Shown here in pieces: positions 2,593 to 58,062 of a stretch of 64,000 nt of DNA; the stretch's first letter is position 1, and each line of letters opens with the position of its first letter. The stretch spans positions 1-64,000 of the forward strand of contig PNOC01000012.1 of NCBI GenBank assembly GCA_013824615.1. The letters are read 5' to 3'. A program made the translations under genes and the position numbers. The DNA comes from Thermodesulfovibrio sp. Lineage in GTDB: Bacteria; Nitrospirota; Thermodesulfovibrionia; Thermodesulfovibrionales; UBA6898. The notes below the pieces were generated by a model. The model did not search any database. It worked only from the letters and a program-made list of their open reading frames with translations, and had not been told where the DNA came from.

Positions 2593-5500
2593 TCAGCCAA
2601 ACATACTTGAGAGCTTCTTAATCGCCTCATCCCTCTGTCTTTTCTGTTCGGCCTGCTTCGGGGGAAGCAGAAATACATTTTTGTTATGGGGATGTCCTGT
2701 CCCGACCGGCACCATGCGGCCTATTATAATATTTTCTTTTGTACCGGTCAGAGGGTCCTTGGCCTTTCGGACCGCCGCGTTTGACAGGATTTCCTTCGTA
2801 TTTTGAAAAGATGCTGCCGACAGCCAGCTGTCGGATTCCAGCGCGGCTTTTGTAAGGCTCATGATTATAAAGCGGGCTTTTGCCCTGGCACCCCGTGGTG
2901 CCTTGTTGATCCGCAGAAACTTGTGCCATGATACCTTCTCTCCGGGGACAAAGTCCGTGCTCCCAGCCTCGGTAATGACAACCTTCCTGAGCATTTTCCG
3001 GAGAATTATCTCGAAGTGCTTGTCGTCGATATCGACCCCCTGCGATTTATATATCTTCTGCACTTCATCTATGACATATGCTGCGGCGCCTGCCGGTCCG
3101 AATACGTCCAGTATGTCTCTGGCGTCCACTATTCCTTCTGCGAGAATGTCCCCGGTCTTTATCCAGTCACCATCGAGGTAGTTGATCTGCCGGCCAACCC
3201 TGATTCGATGCTCGCGGGCCGATCCACCCCCCTCTATGGAAATAGTAATAAAACCGTTTTTCGCCTGACCAATCTTGACCTGGCCGTCGATTGCTGCAAG
3301 CACGGCCGGTTCATCTATCAAACGCACTTCGAGCAGTTGCAGTACTCGCGTGAGTCCTCCTGTTATATCGGCATTTTTGGAGGCCTCGCCTGGCAGTTTT
3401 GCGATAATGTCACCGGGAAGAACTACCTGCTCCTGTTTCAAGATCACCATGGCCCCCATGGGCATCATGTATTGTTTCTCGCCGATAAGCACCGTTGGAA
3501 TGGTCGTAGGGAGGATATTGGTCACATAGAGTTGGCTTATGCCCGTTTCAGCGTCTATGACTTCATTGACAGTAGTACCTTTGATCATGCCTTCATAGGT
3601 GACGCTGCCGGCCGCTGTAGCGATTATCGACCGTGAAAAGGGATCCCATTCTATAATTTTCTGTCCCTTTTTAACGTCATCGCCCTCTTGGGCCAGTAGA
3701 GTTGATCCATATCTGACGCCGCCGGCTTCCTTTTCGAGCCCATTTGCAAAAATCGTGGCTTTGCCACTTCTGCTTACAACGACCTTACTACCATTTCTAT
3801 CTTTCACATATAAGACATCGACATAGTGCAATTTCCCATCATATTTGGCCTCCAGGTGAGAGCTGCTGCCACCTCCGGAGGCAGTGCCTCCGGAGTGAAA
3901 GGTCCTCAGGGTAAGCTGGGTGCCCGGCTCGCCTATGGATTGAGCGGCCAGTATGCCCACGGCATCCCCTATTTCCGGGAGTTGTCTGGAGGCCATATCA
4001 GCCCCGTAACAGGTGGCGCACATACCCACCTCAAGGTCGCAGAATATTGGGGATCTGACGATAACTTCGGATATCTCAGCGTCCCTGATCTTTGCCGATA
4101 TCTCTTTCGTTACCAGATCGCCCCGTATTGCGATAATTTCCTGTGTAACCGGATCGCTGAGGTCAGTACATAGAACGCGCCCGCGAACGCGCTCAGCAGC
4201 CGATGCCTTTACCACGTCATTGTCCAGCAAGGCTTTCATAGGGAACCCGCGGCGTGTGCCACAGTCGATCGCGTTGATCACGACGTCATGGGCTGCATCT
4301 ACCAGCCTTCTGGTAAAGTAGCCGGCGTTTGCCGTTTTCAGTGCCCCGTCGGCTCTCCCTTTACGAGCACCGTGACAGGACAGCAAATATTCAAAGTAGG
4401 TGAGCCCTTCCCGGAAATTGCTCTTTATCGGCATTTCGATGATATCTCCGTTTGGTTTGGCCATGAGTCCGCGCATGCCGGCGAGCTGCCTGATCTGGTC
4501 CTTTGATCCACGGGCCCCGGAATCCGCCATCATGAACATCGAATTGAATTCGCGTGCTATTTTTTTGTCGTCCTCTGAGGCATTGGGGTCGGTTATACCG
4601 AACTTTTCCATCATAACGGAGGCTATCGTGTCTGACGCCTTGATCCAGGCCGCAACTATCTTATTGTGCTTTTCCTGGTCATCCATTGTTCCCTGGGAGT
4701 GACTGCGCAGGATCTCTTTCACTTCGACCTCGGTTTCTCTGATAATAGAATCCTTCTCCTGGGGGATGGTCATATCGTGAATGCACAGTGACACGCCTGA
4801 GAGCGTTGCGTTCCGATATCCGAGATCCTTGAGATTATCAAGCAGTGTGACCGTAGCCTTGTTTCCCAGCCGGTCGTATACCAGTTCGATCAGCCCGCTG
4901 ACATCCTTCTTGCGCATGAGCTTGTTGAGGCTTGAAAAGGGGATTTCCGGGGGAAAGACCTCGGCAAATTGCAGGCGGCCGGCGGTCGTCTCCACAGTGC
5001 CCTCCTCCATACGCACCCTGACCAGGGCATGCAGATCTATAACGCCGTGATCGTGAGCAGTCAGAGCGTCCGCCTTGTCTGCGAATATCTTCCCTTCGCC
5101 CAGAGCACCTTTTCTGTCTTTTGTCATATAGTACAGCCCGAGTACCATATCCTGGCTTGGCACCATCGCGACTTTGCCGCTTGCCGGCGAAATAATATTG
5201 TTTGTCGCGAGCATGAGGACCTTGGCTTCAACCTGGGCGTCAAGCGTTATTGGCAGATGCACTCCCATCTGATCGCCGTCAAAATCGGCATTGAAGGAGG
5301 AGCAGGTGAGGGGATGCAACCGCAGGGCTCTTTCTTTGTGCAGTACGGGTTCAAACGCCTGGATGGACATTCTGTGCAGCGAAGGGGCACGGTTGAGGAG
5401 CACAACCATCTCGCTTGTCACGTACTCCAGAGCATCGATTGCAGTGTCATGCATCATGTCGCACAGCATCATGGCATGGGAAAGCGAGGGGGCCATCCCT

Positions 5501-6582
5501 GTCTGGCGGAGTCTTCCGTAGACGAAGGGACGCATGAGTCCCATGGCAAGTTCAATGGGAAGGCCGCATTGATGGAGTTTCAGATTTGGGCCGACTACAA
5601 TTACCGATCGTCCGGAATAGTCTACCCTCTTACCGAGGAGGTTGCGTCGGATTCTGCCTCCTTTCCCCTCGATCATTGAAGTCAGTGTCTTGAGGATTTT
5701 CTTTCCAGTGCGATTCTTTGTAACGTATTTCTTGTCGAGTAATGAGTCAACAGCCTCCTGGAGGGCTCTTTGCTCCGTATTTACGAGGACTCCTGGGGCC
5801 TGCATAAGCCGCCACCTGCTCAGACGTCGATTTCGACTGATGACCCTTGCATACAAATCATTCAGATCGGAACTGGCCGTCGTTCCGTTGTCGAACACGA
5901 TAACAGGTCTTAATCCGGCCGGCAGCACCGGCAGAACATCCATAACCATCAAGGCGGGGTTTATACCCGACTCGTGGATATCCCTCAATAACAATAGTCT
6001 TCTGTTGACCCTGCGGGAGGGCTCAAGCTTTCTGAGTTTGGACATTTCAGCCTTAGAGTCCATCGATGTAAGCATTTTCTTGATCAGGGCTGCACCCGTT
6101 GAAGCCCGAAAGCCTTTATGCTTTTCCCTGAGACAATCAAAGTAGCTGCCCGAGGAAATGAGGTCACCTTTCTTGAACGCAGCTGTGCCGGGATGCTCAA
6201 CCAGAAAGAGTTCGCACAGTATAATGCCGTCAAGTTTTCTCGGCGGGATATTGAGGTATGAGGCGATAATCTTTCTGAACCACGGATGCACAACAGGGGA
6301 GGCGAGGGTGATATGACCGAACCGGTGTCTCCGTACGATCGGATTATTCGCTTCTACCCCGCAGTCGGGGCATACTTTTACTTTCAGATGCCGCTTTCCG
6401 CAGCGGCAGCGCATATGCTCCATCGGGCCGAAGATCTTCTCGCACAAAAGACCCCGTTCAACCGCTTTCCCCTTCGTATCGAGGGTGTGAGGTACGCTCA
6501 CCTCGCCTCCTGACATCTCCAGTATTTTGAGAGGGTCCAGCAATCCTATAACAGCGCATTCAACGTCGGAGAATCTCTTCAC
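2593..6582 (-). CDS. rpoC: DNA-directed RNA polymerase beta-prime subunit, solitary
   Basis: At 1329 residues this is a full-length bacterial beta-prime. It has the N-terminal zinc site (C59, C61, C71, C74), the catalytic NADFDGDQ loop with Asp433, 435 and 437, the MADSGARGS and trigger-loop regions, the second zinc site (IDCGT plus CDLEVGMCATC), and the AAQSIGEPGTQLT segment. The GTG start is chosen because AGGGGG lies seven bases upstream and the protein begins at the normal clamp segment. No rpoB is adjacent, unlike almost all bacteria. It lies between a replication-relaxation-like gene 18 bases upstream and the rseP-like gene. It could replace the host subunit in a hybrid polymerase or pair with an element-encoded beta outside the window. 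Confidence 0.97.
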   Translation of the reverse strand: MKRFSDVECAVIGLLDPLKILEMSGGEVSVPHTLDTKGKAVERGLLCEKIFGPMEHMRCRCGKRHLKVKVCPDCGVEANNPIVRRHRFGHITLASPVVHPWFRKIIASYLNIPPRKLDGIILCELFLVEHPGTAAFKKGDLISSGSYFDCLREKHKGFRASTGAALIKKMLTSMDSKAEMSKLRKLEPSRRVNRRLLLLRDIHESGINPALMVMDVLPVLPAGLRPVIVFDNGTTASSDLNDLYARVISRNRRLSRWRLMQAPGVLVNTEQRALQEAVDSLLDKKYVTKNRTGKKILKTLTSMIEGKGGRIRRNLLGKRVDYSGRSVIVVGPNLKLHQCGLPIELAMGLMRPFVYGRLRQTGMAPSLSHAMMLCDMMHDTAIDALEYVTSEMVVLLNRAPSLHRMSIQAFEPVLHKERALRLHPLTCSSFNADFDGDQMGVHLPITLDAQVEAKVLMLATNNIISPASGKVAMVPSQDMVLGLYYMTKDRKGALGEGKIFADKADALTAHDHGVIDLHALVRVRMEEGTVETTAGRLQFAEVFPPEIPFSSLNKLMRKKDVSGLIELVYDRLGNKATVTLLDNLKDLGYRNATLSGVSLCIHDMTIPQEKDSIIRETEVEVKEILRSHSQGTMDDQEKHNKIVAAWIKASDTIASVMMEKFGITDPNASEDDKKIAREFNSMFMMADSGARGSKDQIRQLAGMRGLMAKPNGDIIEMPIKSNFREGLTYFEYLLSCHGARKGRADGALKTANAGYFTRRLVDAAHDVVINAIDCGTRRGFPMKALLDNDVVKASAAERVRGRVLCTDLSDPVTQEIIAIRGDLVTKEISAKIRDAEISEVIVRSPIFCDLEVGMCATCYGADMASRQLPEIGDAVGILAAQSIGEPGTQLTLRTFHSGGTASGGGSSSHLEAKYDGKLHYVDVLYVKDRNGSKVVVSRSGKATIFANGLEKEAGGVRYGSTLLAQEGDDVKKGQKIIEWDPFSRSIIATAAGSVTYEGMIKGTTVNEVIDAETGISQLYVTNILPTTIPTVLIGEKQYMMPMGAMVILKQEQVVLPGDIIAKLPGEASKNADITGGLTRVLQLLEVRLIDEPAVLAAIDGQVKIGQAKNGFITISIEGGGSAREHRIRVGRQINYLDGDWIKTGDILAEGIVDARDILDVFGPAGAAAYVIDEVQKIYKSQGVDIDDKHFEIILRKMLRKVVITEAGSTDFVPGEKVSWHKFLRINKAPRGARAKARFIIMSLTKAALESDSWLSAASFQNTKEILSNAAVRKAKDPLTGTKENIIIGRMVPVGTGHPHNKNVFLLPPKQAEQKRQRDEAIKKLSSMFG

Positions 6583-25603: not shown

Positions 25604-25747
25604 ATGTGGTTCAAAAGTGATTTTACTCTTCAACCGATATCCACAGGGTACAAGCGCCAGTCTTTCGACGGAGCTCAGATAAGACATCGGGTATGCCAAC
25701 CGTCTCACTTAGGATTATTAACTAACACGACCAGGAGGTACTCATGA
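25604..25747 (+). CDS. Possible leader miniprotein before the sigma factor
   Basis: AGGAGG precedes an ATG that opens 47 codons ending exactly over the sigma-factor start (ATGA). The protein itself has no recognisable feature. The overlap suggests translational coupling, but coding is uncertain. Confidence 0.3.
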   Translation: MWFKSDFTLQPISTGYKRQSFDGAQIRHRVCQPSHLGLLTNTTRRYS

Positions 25748-26343
25748 CGACTGTAATCGAGAAAAAAAGAGAAGTAAAGGGCATGCGCACGCTTTATCTG
25801 AGTGACGAAGATAAGGACAAATTCTTCGCCAGGTATGAGCGCATGGTTTTGAAGATTGCTCACAAGATGATAAAGCTTGGGTCCAGAGAGTCTTTTGAGG
25901 ATCTGGTACAGAACGGCTGCCTCGGCCTCCTTAAGGCAAAGGACCTTTATCTGAGCACAGGCAAGAGGACACAGTTCAGCACATATGCCTATCGGTGGGT
26001 CATGTCTCTCATGATGGGGAAGTCGTCTCCGAATGACCTTGTTTTACTGGATGCTCTGCCGGACCGTGACGATAAAGACGGGAGTTCGTATTTTGAGACC
26101 CTGCCCGATCCTTCTCCACGGATTGACGAGCTGCTCTGCAATAACGAGGTATGGGATGTTGTTGACGGTCTTCCTGCGCGGCTTAGATTGGTAATCGAGC
26201 TGAGGTTCCGTGATGGCAGAACGTTACAGGAAACAGGCAACGAAATGAATCTCACCAGGGAAAGGATCCGGCAGTTAGAAGCAAAAGCCCTCAGGCTACT
26301 GAGGTTAAGGATGAGAGCGGTCGAATTGTCCAAAGCCGCCTAA
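25744..26343 (+). CDS. Sigma70-family RNA polymerase sigma factor, compact
   Basis: The 199-residue protein contains region 2 (SFEDLVQNGCLGLLKAKDL, then FSTYAYRWV) and region 4 with a helix-turn-helix (LPARLRLVIELRFRDGRTLQ and LTRERIRQLEAKALRLLR). Regions 1 and 3 are missing, as in small alternative sigma factors. It would direct RNA polymerase to special promoters, presumably those of this element. AGGAGG precedes the start. An rpoC lies on the same replicon, which makes an element-specific transcription programme plausible. Confidence 0.85.
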   Translation: MTTVIEKKREVKGMRTLYLSDEDKDKFFARYERMVLKIAHKMIKLGSRESFEDLVQNGCLGLLKAKDLYLSTGKRTQFSTYAYRWVMSLMMGKSSPNDLVLLDALPDRDDKDGSSYFETLPDPSPRIDELLCNNEVWDVVDGLPARLRLVIELRFRDGRTLQETGNEMNLTRERIRQLEAKALRLLRLRMRAVELSKAA

Positions 26344-37464: not shown

Positions 37465-39198
37465 ATGACGAACAAGGAAGAAACACTTGAGCACATCGAA
37501 AAGCTGCTTAAGACCAGCTCTGCCATCGATTTCAAAAAGTCTGTTGCTAATTTTGAGATCGGCAACCTGCTGGCGGACCTCTGCTCGGGAGCGGGGGATG
37601 CCGGCATCAACGAGGCTGTTGCAGCGCTGAACAGCCGGGGCATCTCAGTACAACCGTCGTTCCTTTTTGACACATATAGGGTATTCCGCTCCATCAAAAC
37701 CAAAGAGACTCTGTATAAGATCAGTAACAAACTTCACGGGAGGCTTCCATGGGGTTTCCTGGTGAATCACTGCACGAAGATTCCCGAAGGGGACGACGAG
37801 GTGGTGAGGCAGTACTGGGAGGGTCAGTTCGCCCGTATCGAAGGGAGTCTGACGGGTGCTGCTGATCTTGCAGTATCTGTGGCTGAGCACATAGATCAGA
37901 TGCCTGAGGATCTACGTTTTCAGGCCGAAGGCGTGCTCGAGGCATTCACGGAGCAGGTTTCAGTGAAGGCACCGGCATATGTCTATCCCCCTGTTCGCAG
38001 CGTGTTGCACACAGGAGATGAGCACTTCGACCACGACGACAACCTGGCCGATGTGGTAAAGAGCGCCGGCCATATCGTGGACCTCGCCCGGCAGCTGAAA
38101 CCGGACCTCATTGTCAGTGCCGGTGACATGCTCAACTGCAGGCAGTCGCATGACTCTCCGGCCCTCAGCGCAGCCGGGGGATTTGTGAAGGAGTGTGCTG
38201 AAATCGCTCCGATGCTGATCCTGAAGGGGACGACTACCCATGACGGGGTCAGTGTCGGGCTGTTCAGGACTCTCAAGACGAAGCATAAGGTGTACGTTGC
38301 GGAGACACTCGGCATGGTCGGCCTCAAGGGGGGTGAATTCTTTCCTCTTGATGAGTATCAACCCGGGCTCGATGCACTGATATTCGCGGTTCCTCCTGCG
38401 TCAAAGGCAAACCTCCTTTCGCGCGGGGGTGAAATGGACAGCTCCAACGGAACGGTCGCTGACATGCTCCGGAAGGTCTTTGATATCTGGGGTATCATCT
38501 GCACCCAGGCAAAGCAGGATGGTGTGATGACGATCATAGTTGGTCACGGGACCGTAACGGGGGCTGTAACCAGCACCGGGCAGAAAATGGTCGGCAGGGA
38601 CATTGAATTCAGCCTTGCCGACCTCAGAAGTATCAACGCCGATGTAACCTGTCTGGCACATATCCATAAGGCCCAGTCGTGGCCGGAGGACAGGGTGTTC
38701 TACTCCGGCTCGATCGCCAAGCTCAATGTTGGGGAAACTGAGGATAAAGGGGTCTGGCTCCACGTTAAGAATGACGAAGGGGGCAGCTCCAACTTCCTCA
38801 CTGTTCCTACTAAGAGCATCGTCTCACAGGCTTTCGAGGGGCTTCCGAACCTTGCTGCTCTCCCTGTCATCCAGGAAGGGTCTCTGGTTCGGGTCTGCTA
38901 CAAAGTGGCTGAGGAAGATGTGCACAGTGTTGATGAGGAAGCGCTCAGGGCACAACTGCTGGCCATGGGTGCGGGAGAGGTGCGCATCGAAAAAGCCGTC
39001 ATTCCGAAGATGATGGTGAGGGCAGCGGGCATCAGCAAGATGTCGTTACTGTCTGACAAGCTCGCAAAATGGGCTGAGACGACGGGGACAGCGATCGGCG
39101 ACACCATGAAAGGTAAGCTGGCCTTGCTTGAAATGCCGCGCGACGTTGTTTTTTCAGAACTCAATATCGATATTCCGAGGAGGAAAAACGGAAGATGA
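37465..39198 (+). CDS. sbcD: SbcD/Mre11-like nuclease with an extra N-terminal domain
   Basis: About 577 residues. The metallophosphoesterase core starts near residue 190: GDEHFDHDDN, SAGDMLNC, KGTTTHDG in place of the usual GNHD, VGHGTV and LAHIHKAQ, then FYSGSIAKLN. The first 190 residues are an added helical domain (FEIGNLLADLC, then FLFDTYRVFRSI) without a recognised family. SbcD with SbcC processes DNA ends and hairpins. The start at 37465 has AAAGGAG. It overlaps sbcC by four bases. Confidence 0.85.
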   Translation: MTNKEETLEHIEKLLKTSSAIDFKKSVANFEIGNLLADLCSGAGDAGINEAVAALNSRGISVQPSFLFDTYRVFRSIKTKETLYKISNKLHGRLPWGFLVNHCTKIPEGDDEVVRQYWEGQFARIEGSLTGAADLAVSVAEHIDQMPEDLRFQAEGVLEAFTEQVSVKAPAYVYPPVRSVLHTGDEHFDHDDNLADVVKSAGHIVDLARQLKPDLIVSAGDMLNCRQSHDSPALSAAGGFVKECAEIAPMLILKGTTTHDGVSVGLFRTLKTKHKVYVAETLGMVGLKGGEFFPLDEYQPGLDALIFAVPPASKANLLSRGGEMDSSNGTVADMLRKVFDIWGIICTQAKQDGVMTIIVGHGTVTGAVTSTGQKMVGRDIEFSLADLRSINADVTCLAHIHKAQSWPEDRVFYSGSIAKLNVGETEDKGVWLHVKNDEGGSSNFLTVPTKSIVSQAFEGLPNLAALPVIQEGSLVRVCYKVAEEDVHSVDEEALRAQLLAMGAGEVRIEKAVIPKMMVRAAGISKMSLLSDKLAKWAETTGTAIGDTMKGKLALLEMPRDVVFSELNIDIPRRKNGR

Positions 39199-42098
39199 GA
39201 CCACTGGAACTTACTCTTACAGGGTTCAAGGGAGTCAGGTCAGGCCTCAACCGCGACTCGGTCACGATCAACCTTCGCTCTTACAAGGGGCTGGTTGCAT
39301 TCGTGGGTGACAACGGCAGGGGCAAGTCGACCATCAAGGGGAATCTCCACCCCTACAGAATCATGCCCGACAGGGTAAAGAAGTACTCGCCGAAGGGCTT
39401 CTCGTATTACGAGGAGTGCTACGGAAGCGATGCACGGAAGGAATTGCTTTTCGAGATCTCCGGCAACGTGTACAGAAGTCTTGTTCTGATTGATGCGGTT
39501 AGGCGCAAGCAGGAGGCTTACCTGTATCAGCAGGACGGAGAAGGGCAGTGGCAGGTCTTCGCCAATACCCAGGACGGGAAGCTCGACGTTTACGACACAG
39601 CCGTTGAGGATCTGGTGGGAACACCCCGTATGTTCTTCACTTCCATCTTCAGGTCGCAGAAGGCACCTGCCCTGAGCTCATATACGCGCGGGGAGATGAT
39701 GGACATCTTCGCTGAGCTGATCCAGGTAGATGAGCACAAAGAGAAGAAAGAGACCGCAGGTGATGTAGCCGATGCCCTGCTGCTTCGGAAGAAGGGGCTC
39801 GCAACGGAACTCACAAACCTTCAGTTATCTCTCAACGGCGCCAGTCAGAAACAGGTCGATAAGGCAAAGGCGGAGGAACGCCTTTCTGTCATCTCCTCGG
39901 AGGTCAGCGGCCTTGATGATAAGGTGAAAAAGGCGGAAGGAGACATCAAGGCGCTGGAGATCACAGAGAGCCTTCAGACCGACTTGTCGAAACGTCGCGA
40001 GAAGCTGGCGCAGGATACGGCGGGGAAGGAAAAGCAGGTCCTGGATCTCAGGACTGCGGTTACGGAAAAAAGGGCTGCTGCCAAAACGAAGTACGATGAG
40101 AAGTTTGCCGCCAAGCAGAAGGCTGACGCACGCCTTCTGCAGGTTGTAGCGGATATGGCAACCGTGGAAGGCCGCATGAAGGTCAGCGGAGAGGCGCTCA
40201 AGGCTCTGGAGATCAAGGAGACCCTTCAGGCCGACGCCCAGAAGCGGCGCGAAAAACTCACGCAGGATGTATCTTACAAGGAAAAGCAGAAGGGAGAGGT
40301 TCTCTCGAGTATTACACAGAAGAAGGTCCTCTACAACCAGAAACACAAGGAGAAGAAGGGGCAGCACGACGCTGCGAAGGCCCTGGCAGACAGGGCTGAC
40401 GATCTTCAGAAAAAGTCGGCAGAGGAAGTCTCAAAAGCAGCCTCAGTATCTTCCGTGAAGGAACGTCTGCAGGCTGTGGAGGGGCAGTTATCAACCTATT
40501 CCGGGCAGCTCCGTGAGATCGGAGTGACCGAGACGCAGCTGAAGGAGACCGAAAGTGCGCTTCAGAAGCTCCGTCTTGCCCGGCAGCATGCAGTAGAAAC
40601 AGCAGATACGGCCCTCAGGAGGGCACAGGAGTCGGTGAAGACCCTGGATGATGGTCAGTGCGTATTCCCGGACAAGGCCCCGACATGCAAATTTGTAAAA
40701 GGAGCGATCTCCGACAGAGAGTCCCTTCCTTCTCTCGCGGCTGCCTTGGAAAAGGCTCAGGTACCTGATCCTCAGGAAAAGGTTCTCGAAGCCGAGATAA
40801 CTCGGCTGACGGCATCGGTGGCCATTAAGGGGACCGTTGAAACGCAGGAGAAGGAAGCAGTAAAGCAGAAGGAGTCCCTGGGGAAGGAGCTTGAGACCAC
40901 CGAGAAGGTTCTTGAAACCCTCAGGCAGGCCCTGAAGGACCTGTCGAAGGTGGAGGAGGCAAAAGTGTCTCTTCCTCTTCTTGCAAAGGAGCTGGCGGAT
41001 ATCCTTTCGGAAGGTAAAGGGGTCATCTCCGACCTTGAAAAGCAGGGGACCCTGCTGGAGAAGGAGATCGAGGCGTTGCAGTTGGATCTGAAAGGGATAT
41101 CAGTTGATGAGACCCTGCCGGCTGAGATCAAAAGCCTCAGGGAGTCTGTGGAGGCTGACAAAGCCTCGCTGGAGACCCTCAGGAAGGAGGATGCAACCCT
41201 CAGAGGGGAGATTGGCTCGCTTGCCGATATCCAGTCCATCCTGACCGAATGCGAAGCCGCTGTTAAGGAGATTGAAAAACAGGTGGCCCAGCTTGTGATG
41301 GAGATTGAGGCGCTGCAGTCGGAGCTGAAGGGGATAGCGGTTGATGAGACCCTGCCGGCCGAGATAAAACGCCTCAGGGAATCTGTGGAGGCTGACAAGT
41401 CCTCCCTCGAGATCCTCAGGAAGGAAGAGGCGACCCTTCGCGTAATGGTGGGGTCCCTCAGTGAAGTGATCAAACAGATAGAGCTTGCAAAAGAGCGTAT
41501 TGCGGTCCTTGCATCAGAGGTGGAAGCCCTCGACCGGGATATCAGCGAGTGGCAGGTACTTGAGAAGGCGATGGAGGGCATCATTACCCTCGAAATCGAC
41601 GATGCCGGGCCCACGGTGACGGCTATCACCAACGACATCCTCCTTTCCTGCTACGGGCCGCGCTTTAGCGTCAACATTAAGACTCAGGACGCTAAGGTAG
41701 GCGGTGACAAGGACATGAAGGAAGTGTTCGACATTGTGGTTTACGACAGCCAGAGAAACGAGTCGAAATCACTGTCGGTCATGTCGGGTGGTGAAGAAAC
41801 ATGGATTGATGATGCTATCACCCGTGGAATCAGTCTTTTTAATGCTTCCCGGGGTGGAGTGAACTACCAGCTCCTGTTTTCCGATGAGAAGGACGGCCGT
41901 CTCACAGAGGAAAAGAAGAAGGAGTTCATGGCGGTCAAACGCCGTGTGCTGGAGCTGGGAGGATTCTTGGGGGAGTATTTCATCTCCCATACGAAAGAGA
42001 TCCAGGAGATGGCCGACGCAGTCATCGACCTGGAGGAACTTGTGGCAGAACCGTCACAGAGGGCAGCGGCAGAGTCGTCTCAGGGAGTACTTGTCTAG
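39195..42098 (+). CDS. sbcC: SbcC/Rad50-like ATPase
   Basis: The 967-residue protein is an SMC-like ATPase. It has Walker A GDNGRGKST, the signature MSGGEE, a Walker B region LLFSDEKDG, and the H-loop FISHTKE. The centre is a long coiled coil with a variant zinc hook: C489 and C498, spaced CX8C, in place of CXXC. Both coil arms contain long internal repeats (about 39942 and 40194; about 41064 and 41301). It holds SbcD at DNA ends. It is the last gene before a terminator. Confidence 0.9.
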   Translation: MRPLELTLTGFKGVRSGLNRDSVTINLRSYKGLVAFVGDNGRGKSTIKGNLHPYRIMPDRVKKYSPKGFSYYEECYGSDARKELLFEISGNVYRSLVLIDAVRRKQEAYLYQQDGEGQWQVFANTQDGKLDVYDTAVEDLVGTPRMFFTSIFRSQKAPALSSYTRGEMMDIFAELIQVDEHKEKKETAGDVADALLLRKKGLATELTNLQLSLNGASQKQVDKAKAEERLSVISSEVSGLDDKVKKAEGDIKALEITESLQTDLSKRREKLAQDTAGKEKQVLDLRTAVTEKRAAAKTKYDEKFAAKQKADARLLQVVADMATVEGRMKVSGEALKALEIKETLQADAQKRREKLTQDVSYKEKQKGEVLSSITQKKVLYNQKHKEKKGQHDAAKALADRADDLQKKSAEEVSKAASVSSVKERLQAVEGQLSTYSGQLREIGVTETQLKETESALQKLRLARQHAVETADTALRRAQESVKTLDDGQCVFPDKAPTCKFVKGAISDRESLPSLAAALEKAQVPDPQEKVLEAEITRLTASVAIKGTVETQEKEAVKQKESLGKELETTEKVLETLRQALKDLSKVEEAKVSLPLLAKELADILSEGKGVISDLEKQGTLLEKEIEALQLDLKGISVDETLPAEIKSLRESVEADKASLETLRKEDATLRGEIGSLADIQSILTECEAAVKEIEKQVAQLVMEIEALQSELKGIAVDETLPAEIKRLRESVEADKSSLEILRKEEATLRVMVGSLSEVIKQIELAKERIAVLASEVEALDRDISEWQVLEKAMEGIITLEIDDAGPTVTAITNDILLSCYGPRFSVNIKTQDAKVGGDKDMKEVFDIVVYDSQRNESKSLSVMSGGEETWIDDAITRGISLFNASRGGVNYQLLFSDEKDGRLTEEKKKEFMAVKRRVLELGGFLGEYFISHTKEIQEMADAVIDLEELVAEPSQRAAAESSQGVLV

Positions 42099-56102: not shown

Positions 56103-56144
56103 AAACAAAACCTCCGAAGAACCACTTCGGAGGTTTTGTTTTTT
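56103..56144 (+). terminator. Rho-independent terminator after the ligase gene
   Basis: A 17-pair perfect stem (AAACAAAACCTCCGAAG with its complement) closes a five-base loop and is followed by TTT. Confidence 0.93.
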
Positions 56145-56179: not shown

Positions 56180-56884
56180 ATGGAAGAAGTTGAACAAGCT
56201 GACCAGGCTGTTAAGAATCTTCTGATTGCTGGCCATCCGCTGGTGGTAGCCTGGAGCGGCGGCAAAGACTCGAGTTGTCTCTTGAACATCACGCTCGTAT
56301 CCGCCTCTGAAGTGAAAAGAGATACCGGGGATTGTCCACCCATCTTTGTCACCCATGCCGACACCCTTATCGAAAATCCGGAAGTTCATCAGTGCGCTCT
56401 TGCCGAAATAAAGCGTATCGAGACCTTTGCTCAGTCTGCCGGCCTGAACGCTTCGGTGATGATTGCAAGGCCGAGGACGTATGAGCATTTTGCGGTGCAG
56501 CTCATAGGACGCAGGGCACTACCTACATATCCGGATTCGGCACAGAGGCGGTGCACCTGGGACTGGAAGGTAAAACCAATGCAGAGGCTTAATGCGGATA
56601 TTCTGAAGAAGTGTAGTGCTTATCCGCTGCAACCGGTTCGACTTATTGGAACCCGCTTTGAAGAAAGCTCGGTTAGAGCCAGGAAAATGCACGAGAGGAA
56701 CGATTCGGCAACGGTCGTTCGCACGGACAGTGCAGACGGGTTTGCCTCTCTAAGCCCGATCTGTGAGCTGACTTCGGACGATGTCTGGGTATATCTTGCT
56801 GAAGTAAGAGATGGCATTCGACCTGGCTATTCGGACTTTCTGGCAGTCTTTCAGCTTTATAAGGACGCATCAGGAGAGACCTGA
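56180..56884 (+). CDS. DndC-like PAPS-reductase-fold protein, part before the in-frame UGA
   Basis: The first 234 residues contain the nucleotide loop WSGGKDSS, typical of PAPS reductase and DndC (the sulfur-incorporating enzyme of DNA phosphorothioation), then VTHADTLIENPE and RRCTWDWKVKP. The segment ends LYKDASGET followed by UGA (56882-56884). In DndC the matching block reads LYRxAxGGEC, so UGA falls exactly on the conserved cysteine without a gap. The frame continues after UGA with the rest of the family (next entry). ATG at 56180 is preferred over GTG at 56171. Treat both entries as one gene of about 569 residues. Confidence 0.85.
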   Translation: MEEVEQADQAVKNLLIAGHPLVVAWSGGKDSSCLLNITLVSASEVKRDTGDCPPIFVTHADTLIENPEVHQCALAEIKRIETFAQSAGLNASVMIARPRTYEHFAVQLIGRRALPTYPDSAQRRCTWDWKVKPMQRLNADILKKCSAYPLQPVRLIGTRFEESSVRARKMHERNDSATVVRTDSADGFASLSPICELTSDDVWVYLAEVRDGIRPGYSDFLAVFQLYKDASGET

Positions 56885-57889
56885 ACGATTCTGGGGACAG
56901 AGACAGTTTCGTCTCTCAGGAAAAAAGGATGTGGATCGCGTTTTGGGTGCGGACTTTGCACGGTTGTTTCGGAGGACAGGTCCCTTGAAACAATGGTGAA
57001 GGAAGACAGGTTTGCTTATATGGCGGGGCTTGTTTCATTGAGAAACTATCTCGTCAACATACGCTGGGACATGAGCAGGAGGGATTGGGTTGGCAAGAAT
57101 GTAGACTCCCATGGATTTCTGCATATCGCTCCGGAGAACTTCCATTCAGGAGAAGTTGAAGACATCTTGAAATACTGCCTCACTATCGACGTAGAAGAAA
57201 TGGAGGCCGCCTCGCGAGAAGGGCTTGATGGACCGCGTTTTCAACTCATCCCTGCTGACGTCCTGGTACTGATAGATAGTCTGTGGAGTTACTTCGCTCT
57301 GCACCCTGCGTTTCATGCCTTGAAGATCTATCGGGACATTTACGTCGATGGGAAAAGATATCCGGTCCCGGAAGTGAAAGCGTCTCCCCGCATCAAAATG
57401 GGGGGAAGAAGATATCTGTATGTCGGTGATTTGATGTCAGAGGCGTATTTGTATTTCGGCCTCCGAGATCCGCAGCTCGAGCTGTTCTGTGAAACCTGTT
57501 ATGAGGATATGTTCGTAGTCAAGAATGGACGGCAGTATCTCAACGTCTCGACAGAAGACCACCTCACCGTAAATAACGAGGGACTCTGGTTTCTTTTCGA
57601 ACACGAACTCGATCGGCTGATCTGTGGCTGGCACGATAACCCGGCGTATGTGAGGACTTCCGGTTTCATGTGGTATCTCACCGCCGGGATTATCTCTATT
57701 GGTAAAGGGCAGCACTCCAGAGCGGACATGGTACTCAGAAGATCCCGACTTCGTGAGTCTAAAGGGCTGATTTGGCCATACGAGGGGTTCAATTTTGACC
57801 AGGATACGCTGAGCGTATCTGATTATTCACGGTTGACTGGCGATATGCCGGCAGACATTGAAGAGGGGGCTACGATCCCTCTATTTTGA
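56885..57889 (+). CDS. DndC-like protein, part after the in-frame UGA
   Basis: The same frame continues without a stop for 334 codons. It has the DndC iron-sulfur motif CGSRFGCGLCTVVSEDRSLETM soon after the UGA, written here as CGSRFGC and LCTVVSEDRS, then LRNYLVNIRWDMSRRD. The intact conserved motif on the far side of the UGA shows that the protein was read through it. A conventional gene caller would start this half at the ATG at 56993 and lose the cysteines. A gene of 53 codons follows after 11 bases. Confidence 0.8.
   Translation, partial: TILGTETVSSLRKKGCGSRFGCGLCTVVSEDRSLETMVKEDRFAYMAGLVSLRNYLVNIRWDMSRRDWVGKNVDSHGFLHIAPENFHSGEVEDILKYCLTIDVEEMEAASREGLDGPRFQLIPADVLVLIDSLWSYFALHPAFHALKIYRDIYVDGKRYPVPEVKASPRIKMGGRRYLYVGDLMSEAYLYFGLRDPQLELFCETCYEDMFVVKNGRQYLNVSTEDHLTVNNEGLWFLFEHELDRLICGWHDNPAYVRTSGFMWYLTAGIISIGKGQHSRADMVLRRSRLRESKGLIWPYEGFNFDQDTLSVSDYSRLTGDMPADIEEGATIPLF
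56891..56919 (+). promoter_or_regulatory. Candidate bacterial SECIS hairpin
   Basis: AGAGAC (56899-56904) pairs with GTCTCT (56911-56916) around the loop AGTTTC; CTG (56891-56893) pairs with CAG (56917-56919) past a five-base bulge. The loop starts 20 bases after the UGA and has G in its second position. These match the usual bacterial SECIS rules: a short distance to UGA, a small apical loop, and a G among the first two loop bases. Confidence 0.6.
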
Positions 57890-57900
57890 AGGAGGTTTAC

Positions 57901-58062
57901 ATGGAAAGAATTAAATCTCAGAAGGACCCGTTTACCGCGTTGCAGCGCCTTGCGATTGACAAGTACGAAAAAGGAGACTTTGCCCATATCAAGACACGCG
58001 GTGATCTCAGAAATTGCGGAGACGGTCTGCTGCCCTTCCTTGTCGCCGAACATCGTTTTTAA
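57901..58062 (+). CDS. Hypothetical small protein, 53 residues
   Basis: AGGAGG precedes the ATG. The sequence ends LRNCGDGLLPFLVAEHRF; the NCGD-LL-FL-E block recalls small proteins found on many plasmids. Function is unknown. It lies between the DndC-like gene and the 58092 gene. Confidence 0.55.
   Translation: MERIKSQKDPFTALQRLAIDKYEKGDFAHIKTRGDLRNCGDGLLPFLVAEHRF

Follow-up and report, generated by a model that had tools for sequence, protein, structure and literature searches.

Organization of the locus

The window analyzed here is a 64,000-nucleotide stretch that, together with a further 8,143 bp, makes up a 72,143-bp contig of a Thermodesulfovibrio sp. assembly (3.6 Mb, 96 contigs). It contains, on the forward strand, a gene for a DndC-like protein with a predicted PAPS-reductase fold, whose features are collected in Table 1. 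The preliminary description of this DNA reported one frame of about 569 codons that is broken only by a UGA. Direct reading of the sequence confirms this: the frame comprises 569 sense codons, codon 235 is the sole internal TGA, the 334 codons downstream of it are intact, and the gene itself ends in a TGA. Homology combined with a same-frame ORF survey of the window and the additional 8,143 bp identified this as the only place on the whole contig where a single homologous gene is split by a stop; elsewhere, long same-frame neighbors that flank a stop are explained as adjacent, separate genes. The small ORF that directly follows the gene is a possible operon partner.

Table 1. Features of the DndC-like gene and its immediate surroundings (positions refer to the window)
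Feature	Position	Strand	Basis or remark
Terminator-like hairpin with T-run, just upstream; divides the gene from the preceding ligase gene	56104..56142	+	Sequence reading
DndC-like/PAPS-reductase-fold sulfurtransferase gene	56180..57889	+	569 residues plus stop, UGA read through; Pfam, NCBIfam, AF2
PP-loop SGGKDS, residues 26-31, ATP-pyrophosphatase motif	56255..56272	+	S26, G28, K29, D30, and S31 invariant in the 37-row alignment
Cys125, equivalent of DndC Cys146, proposed [4Fe-4S] ligand	56552..56554	+	Cys in 37/37 rows; role by analogy (PMC12193691)
In-frame UGA, codon 235, proposed Sec; counterpart of DndC Cys262	56882..56884	+	Cys at this column in 36/36 remaining homologs
SECIS-like hairpin: loop AGUUUC (56905-56910), 6-bp upper stem, 5-bp lower stem, 5-nt bulge	56889..56921	+	bSECIS constraints
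CGSRFGCGLC: Cys251 (=C273), Cys257 (=C280), and Cys260 (=C283), proposed Fe-S ligands	56930..56959	+	Each Cys in 37/37 rows
C-terminal domain, residues 276-569, common to the plasmid family	57005..57886	+	Alignment; AF2
Small ORF (53 aa) that has an AGGAGG of its own, directly after the DndC-like gene	57901..58062	+	Sequence reading

Protein family and predicted fold

The protein is matched by the Pfam model PAPS_reduct with 28.2 bits (cut-off 22.5). The NCBIfam DndC model (TIGR03183) yields 139.6 bits, about half of its curated cut-off of 290.4 and thus below the membership score, and the PADLOC DndC models cover only residues 4-302. The AF2 model of the UGA-read-through protein has a pLDDT of 88.9, and structure matches of this model assign residues 1-273 to the PP-loop/PAPS-reductase fold; among the matching structures are APS reductase 2GOY, with Z 12.3 across 190 residues, and NcsA, a [4Fe-4S] thiolase, with Z 12.1. 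The C-terminal 294 residues, folded alone, reach a pLDDT of 87.2; a comparison of this domain with solved PDB structures gave no match at E≤0.001.

The nearest full-length relatives are plasmid genes that are mostly annotated as 'phosphoadenosine phosphosulfate reductase family' and share 30-37% identity over ~90% of the protein. They reside on plasmids of Geoalkalibacter, Variovorax, Methylomonas, Cupriavidus, and others, and members with 26-29% identity are widespread on IncC and IncHI plasmids. The match to this plasmid family is full-length and includes the C-terminal domain, and the gene itself is carried on what is very likely a plasmid (see below), which places the protein within the family. 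A dndB/dndD/dndE operon was not recognized among the neighboring proteins scanned on the 72-kb contig, which is incomplete. Since the DndC score is about half of the cut-off, no dndBDE genes are seen nearby, and the C-terminal domain is its own, the protein is by its sequence not DndC proper and only distantly DndC-like. The likeness to DndC drawn in the preliminary description is upheld at a distance only, the nearest full-length relatives being PAPS reductase family proteins encoded on large plasmids.

Conserved cysteines and the UGA column

In a 37-row alignment, for which the query UGA was translated as Cys, every one of the 36 other homologs has Cys at column 235, as the preliminary description had anticipated, and columns 125, 251, 257, and 260 are invariantly Cys (37/37). 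The same Cys columns recur in DndC-like chains of the host class, in IMG/VR members, and on IncC and IncHI plasmids. By order and spacing, positions 125/235/251/257/260 correspond to C146/C262/C273/C280/C283 of E. coli B7A DndC; the DndC trait of a PP-loop with five conserved cysteines is thus present, with the UGA as the fifth cysteine. In DndC, C146, C273, C280, and C283 are the four proposed [4Fe-4S] ligands, from which C262 is left out (PMC12193691), and a cysteine dyad is proposed to receive and transfer sulfur (PMC10853773).

Downstream of the UGA, the invariant C251, R254, G256, C257, and C260 are kept, as is the whole C-terminal domain. The retention of CGSRFGCGLC is as expected if this stretch is translated. 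It had been claimed that the iron-sulfur motif continues in the same frame after the UGA, which holds for Cys251, Cys257, and Cys260; the UGA, as the counterpart of Cys262, which is not counted among the proposed ligands (PMC12193691), is not simply a part of that motif.

One exception lies outside the 37-row set. The Geoalkalibacter plasmid homolog (L036:4124-5764), which is the closest by identity in the plasmid collection, has no Cys at column 235, and this counts against the Sec reading. Its motif is rearranged, NGCEVYKCRFGCSVC (CEVYKCRFGC), along with its cysteines. Distant PAPS-reductase-like proteins of phages lack both column 235 and column 251 and keep the GC..C pair; this joint absence is consistent with 235 and 251 forming a functional pair.

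SECIS-like hairpin and host selenocysteine machinery

The published bSECIS model comprises a loop of 3-9 nt, a stem of 4-16 bp, a spacing of 16-37 nt, and an MFE≤-7.5 (PMC13188914, Fig. 2A); it also asks for a G within the first two nucleotides of the loop, with G or U next in most cases (PMC13188914). The hairpin downstream of UGA235 conforms to these constraints: its 6-nt loop begins 20 nt after the UGA and has G at position 2, its upper stem has 6 bp (56899-56904 paired with 56911-56916), and its energy is -10.1 kcal/mol. As a positive control, 48 UGAs in fdhA and selD of the clade were used, and as a negative control, 2,758 TGAs on the contig. The strict model was passed by 41/48 of the former versus 10.4% of the latter, or 7.5% at the energy of this hairpin. 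In all 48 positives, as in the hairpin here, the 5' side of the loop has a G followed by a U.

With -10.1 against a median of -21.4 for the positives, the hairpin is weaker than most SECIS elements of the clade. It is not the unconstrained minimum-energy fold, since alternatives over stretches of ~50 nt reach -12 to -14 kcal/mol, and folding z-scores for the region are only -1.0 to -2.4. The hairpin had been put forward for its distance and its G in the loop; on both counts the fit stands, and its specificity is modest. Because ~10% of random contig TGAs satisfy the same model, the hairpin is moderate, not strong, evidence for a SECIS.

The source genome encodes selA, selB, selC, and selD. A profile search of the host genome recovered selB with 369 bits (cut-off 242); a selA-like frame adjoins it, recognized by sequence without a dedicated family search. 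The tRNA-Sec scores 69.5 bits and has a UCA anticodon, and selD is itself interrupted by the usual UGA, in SCAG-U-AAK. Among the matches listed for FdhA in 229 class genomes, most have one in-frame UGA, and nearly every full-length SelD in the host family has the UGA.

Plasmid context

Genes for ParB, Replic_Relax, and an integrase are present on the contig. Synteny links its left 44 kb and the DnaN clamp gene to a 294-kb contig (G166:C34) from a genome of the same family; that contig also encodes the F-type T4SS proteins TraC, TraG_N, and TraN and a coupling protein. Plasmid status is assigned from ParB, Replic_Relax, and this synteny, and the element very likely forms part of a conjugative megaplasmid belonging in the host family, which supports the binning. 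None of the tblastn matches to G166:C34 covers the block at ~44.4-65 kb, which contains SNF2 helicases, an AAA ATPase, DUF3150, an N6-MTase, a ligase, and the DndC-like gene; the DndC-like gene thus lies in a variable region.

The syntenic segments (window 220-44257 and L179:1899-2990; L314-L328 of G166:C34) characterize a megaplasmid family with genes for beta', sigma, the RNR large subunit, DnaN, SSB, ParB, and SbcCD-like proteins, and with the F-type T4SS in G166:C34. The beta' gene in the window (2593-6582, minus strand) is a second, full-length, divergent rpoC of RNA polymerase that scores 1226 bits, the chromosomal-type copy on contig C22 scoring 1810 bits. Two genomes of the same family have contigs that carry relatives of the plasmid beta' (53-56% identity), and a sigma factor (25744-26343) is encoded on the same element.

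On Cupriavidus plasmids, the homolog of the DndC-like gene is located near an SbcC-like ATPase related to that at 39195-42098 of the window. On Pseudomonas, Halomonas, and Paraburkholderia plasmids, it is located near a second PAPS-reductase-like gene related to L179:4001-5035, which itself encodes a second PAPS-reductase-like protein on the present contig (68001-69038).

Search for further UGA forms and internal stops

A homolog that keeps the UGA was looked for in 230 class genomes, 396 phylum genomes, the inspected plasmid and phage records, and the IMG/VR pattern scans, and none turned up; such a recurrence would support a selenoprotein without being indispensable to it. Other phyla were partly sampled, by way of related loci and the plasmid and phage collections. 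The IMG/VR scans for a TGA at the Cys position returned 0, 53, and 0 matches, and none of the 53 encodes a relative.

Isolated internal stops are present in the family homologs G293, L076, and L239, none of them at columns 235, 251, 257, or 260, and nonsense changes or base errors are hence a real background in this family. The metagenomic homolog L239:2107-3801, with an in-frame stop within the PP-loop region, exemplifies such a nonsense change or sequence error. The internal TGA of the G293 homolog was considered as a second Sec case and rejected, as it lies at a different site. On Enterobacter and E. coli plasmids, homologs that are split and end near the Cys motif were likewise set aside; the breaks are not UGAs and look like insertions. 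On IncHI2 (L298:1324-2376) and IncC (L300:1336-2361) plasmids, the PAPS-reductase gene is cut at the conserved GC..C motif, and the same site-specific integrase (WP_007897923.1) follows both cuts. The codons of this motif may serve as an integration site.

Interpretation of the in-frame UGA

Given a UGA at a Cys column, a Sec-making host, and a model-conforming SECIS, the UGA235 protein probably represents a new selenoprotein family, decoded by the host SelA/SelB/SelC/SelD with the hairpin as its SECIS. That the UGA is actually read as Sec, and which role the residue plays, we infer from the sequence. The proposal of a probable new selenoprotein is thus sustained by the Cys column, the Sec genes, and the SECIS fit; its limits are the lack of a UGA homolog in the genomes and collections searched and the modest SECIS specificity.

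The main rival, because no second UGA-bearing homolog was found, is that a Cys codon (TGC/TGT) has become TGA through a point nonsense mutation, or through an error of one base in the assembly, in an otherwise ordinary Cys-containing gene of the plasmid family. One base change would be enough, other members of the family have isolated internal stops, the genomes and collections searched yielded no UGA homolog, and the hairpin is on the weak side of a model that ~10% of random TGAs fit. These points make such an origin a serious though rather unlikely alternative, against which stand the 334 open codons downstream, the Sec machinery of the host, and the position of the UGA at the sole invariant family Cys outside the proposed cluster ligands. 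There are 213 single-base routes to a stop in the gene, and with codon 235 counted, 5/214 (~2.3%) strike a family Cys; among the routes that lead to TGA, 8.8% do so. A random stop would thus fall on any of the five in ~2% of cases, and a strike together with a passing hairpin is expected in ~0.2% of random nonsense events. The lack of a UGA homolog has precedent: 12 new selenoprotein genes were described in 20 Sec-using genomes, and 3/9 new selenoprotein families were likewise without one (PMC12013277). Assuming a nonsense or error rate of ~1% per gene, the odds for Sec would be several to one, and the selection of a striking case lowers them.

Two further readings carry far less weight. The UGA might be a true stop, with the halves as separate proteins or a regulated truncation, and a second ATG frame does start at 56993. 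This start lies after Cys260, so that the conserved CGSRFGC..C would stay untranslated despite its retention; a well-placed ribosome site is not seen ahead of this ATG, and the aligned homologs are single proteins, which renders a true stop very improbable. Still less credible is the reading of the UGA as another amino acid through a changed genetic code or a suppressor, for which the open frame speaks and nothing further: a UGA terminates the same gene at 57889, Cys is the aligned residue, and the host decodes the selD UGA through the Sec system.

Proposed mechanism and significance

In the selenoprotein reading, host SelA/SelB/SelC/SelD would insert Sec at UGA235, directed by the hairpin 20 nt downstream. 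In the most likely mechanism, ATP bound at the SGGKDS loop would activate a nucleic acid by adenylation at a phosphate or base oxygen, and Cys125, Cys251, Cys257, and Cys260 would hold, or help to hold, a [4Fe-4S] cluster. Sec235, as the counterpart of DndC Cys262, and Cys251 would form a reactive pair in which sulfur is received as a per-sulfide on selenium; this sulfur would then be passed from the pair to the activated substrate, or the intermediate would be resolved redox-wise. By analogy with DndC, Sec235 and Cys251 most likely form a sulfur-relay pair; this role is favored because the Sec column corresponds to Cys262, which is conserved but is no proposed [4Fe-4S] ligand. The substrate is probably DNA or RNA of the plasmid or host, with plasmid maintenance or protection as the probable benefit. 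A bolder extension, which we consider a long shot, is that a selenium-dependent enzyme for nucleic-acid modification is encoded on the conjugative megaplasmid, its Sec serving as a sulfur or even a selenium carrier to DNA or RNA and giving rise to a selenium-dependent epigenetic mark.

Literature searches (DndC with selenocysteine; PAPS reductase with SECIS) found no description of a Sec form of DndC or PAPS reductase, and the main text of the 2026 prokaryotic selenoprotein catalogue contains none of the terms PF01507, DndC, 'phosphosulfate', and 'pyrophosphatase'. If correct, the assignment would extend selenocysteine to the DndC/PAPS-reductase PP-loop sulfurtransferases. A natural Cys-to-Sec swap at the Cys262 position would point to a redox or sulfur-carrier function, not cluster binding, and would turn the role of Cys262 into a testable mechanistic question. 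It would also tie the plasmid gene to a Sec-inserting host, as the protein would be truncated wherever the Sec machinery is missing.

Comparison with known systems

The plasmid PAPS reductase family (IncC/IncA/C, IncHI, Cupriavidus, Variovorax, Pseudomonas, Burkholderia) has the same two-domain layout, a similar length, and the five cysteine positions, at 26-37% identity over ~90% of the protein. It differs in having Cys at the UGA column in the inspected members, apart from that of Geoalkalibacter, which has no Cys there. DndC (TIGR03183), the sulfurtransferase of DNA phosphorothioation, shares the PP-loop, the C146/C262/C273/C280/C283 pattern, and ~30% identity over the first 300 residues; the C-terminal domain is where the two diverge, and a dndBDE or ssp operon is not seen here. 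A relation to the CysH-like protein of type IV-B CRISPR systems, a PP-loop protein from which the catalytic Cys is absent (PMC8175902), was rejected, since all family cysteine positions are conserved in the present protein. CysH/APS reductase (2GOY) and the 4Fe-4S tRNA thiolases TtuA and NcsA resemble it in the PP-loop fold (Z ~12 over ~190 residues) and in Fe-S sulfur chemistry, but act on other substrates; APS reductase is without equivalents of Cys262 and Cys273 (PMC12193691). Bacterial selenoproteins with rhodanese or other sulfurtransferase domains (PMC13188914, PMC9312934) offer a parallel in the use of Sec for Cys, in a different fold.
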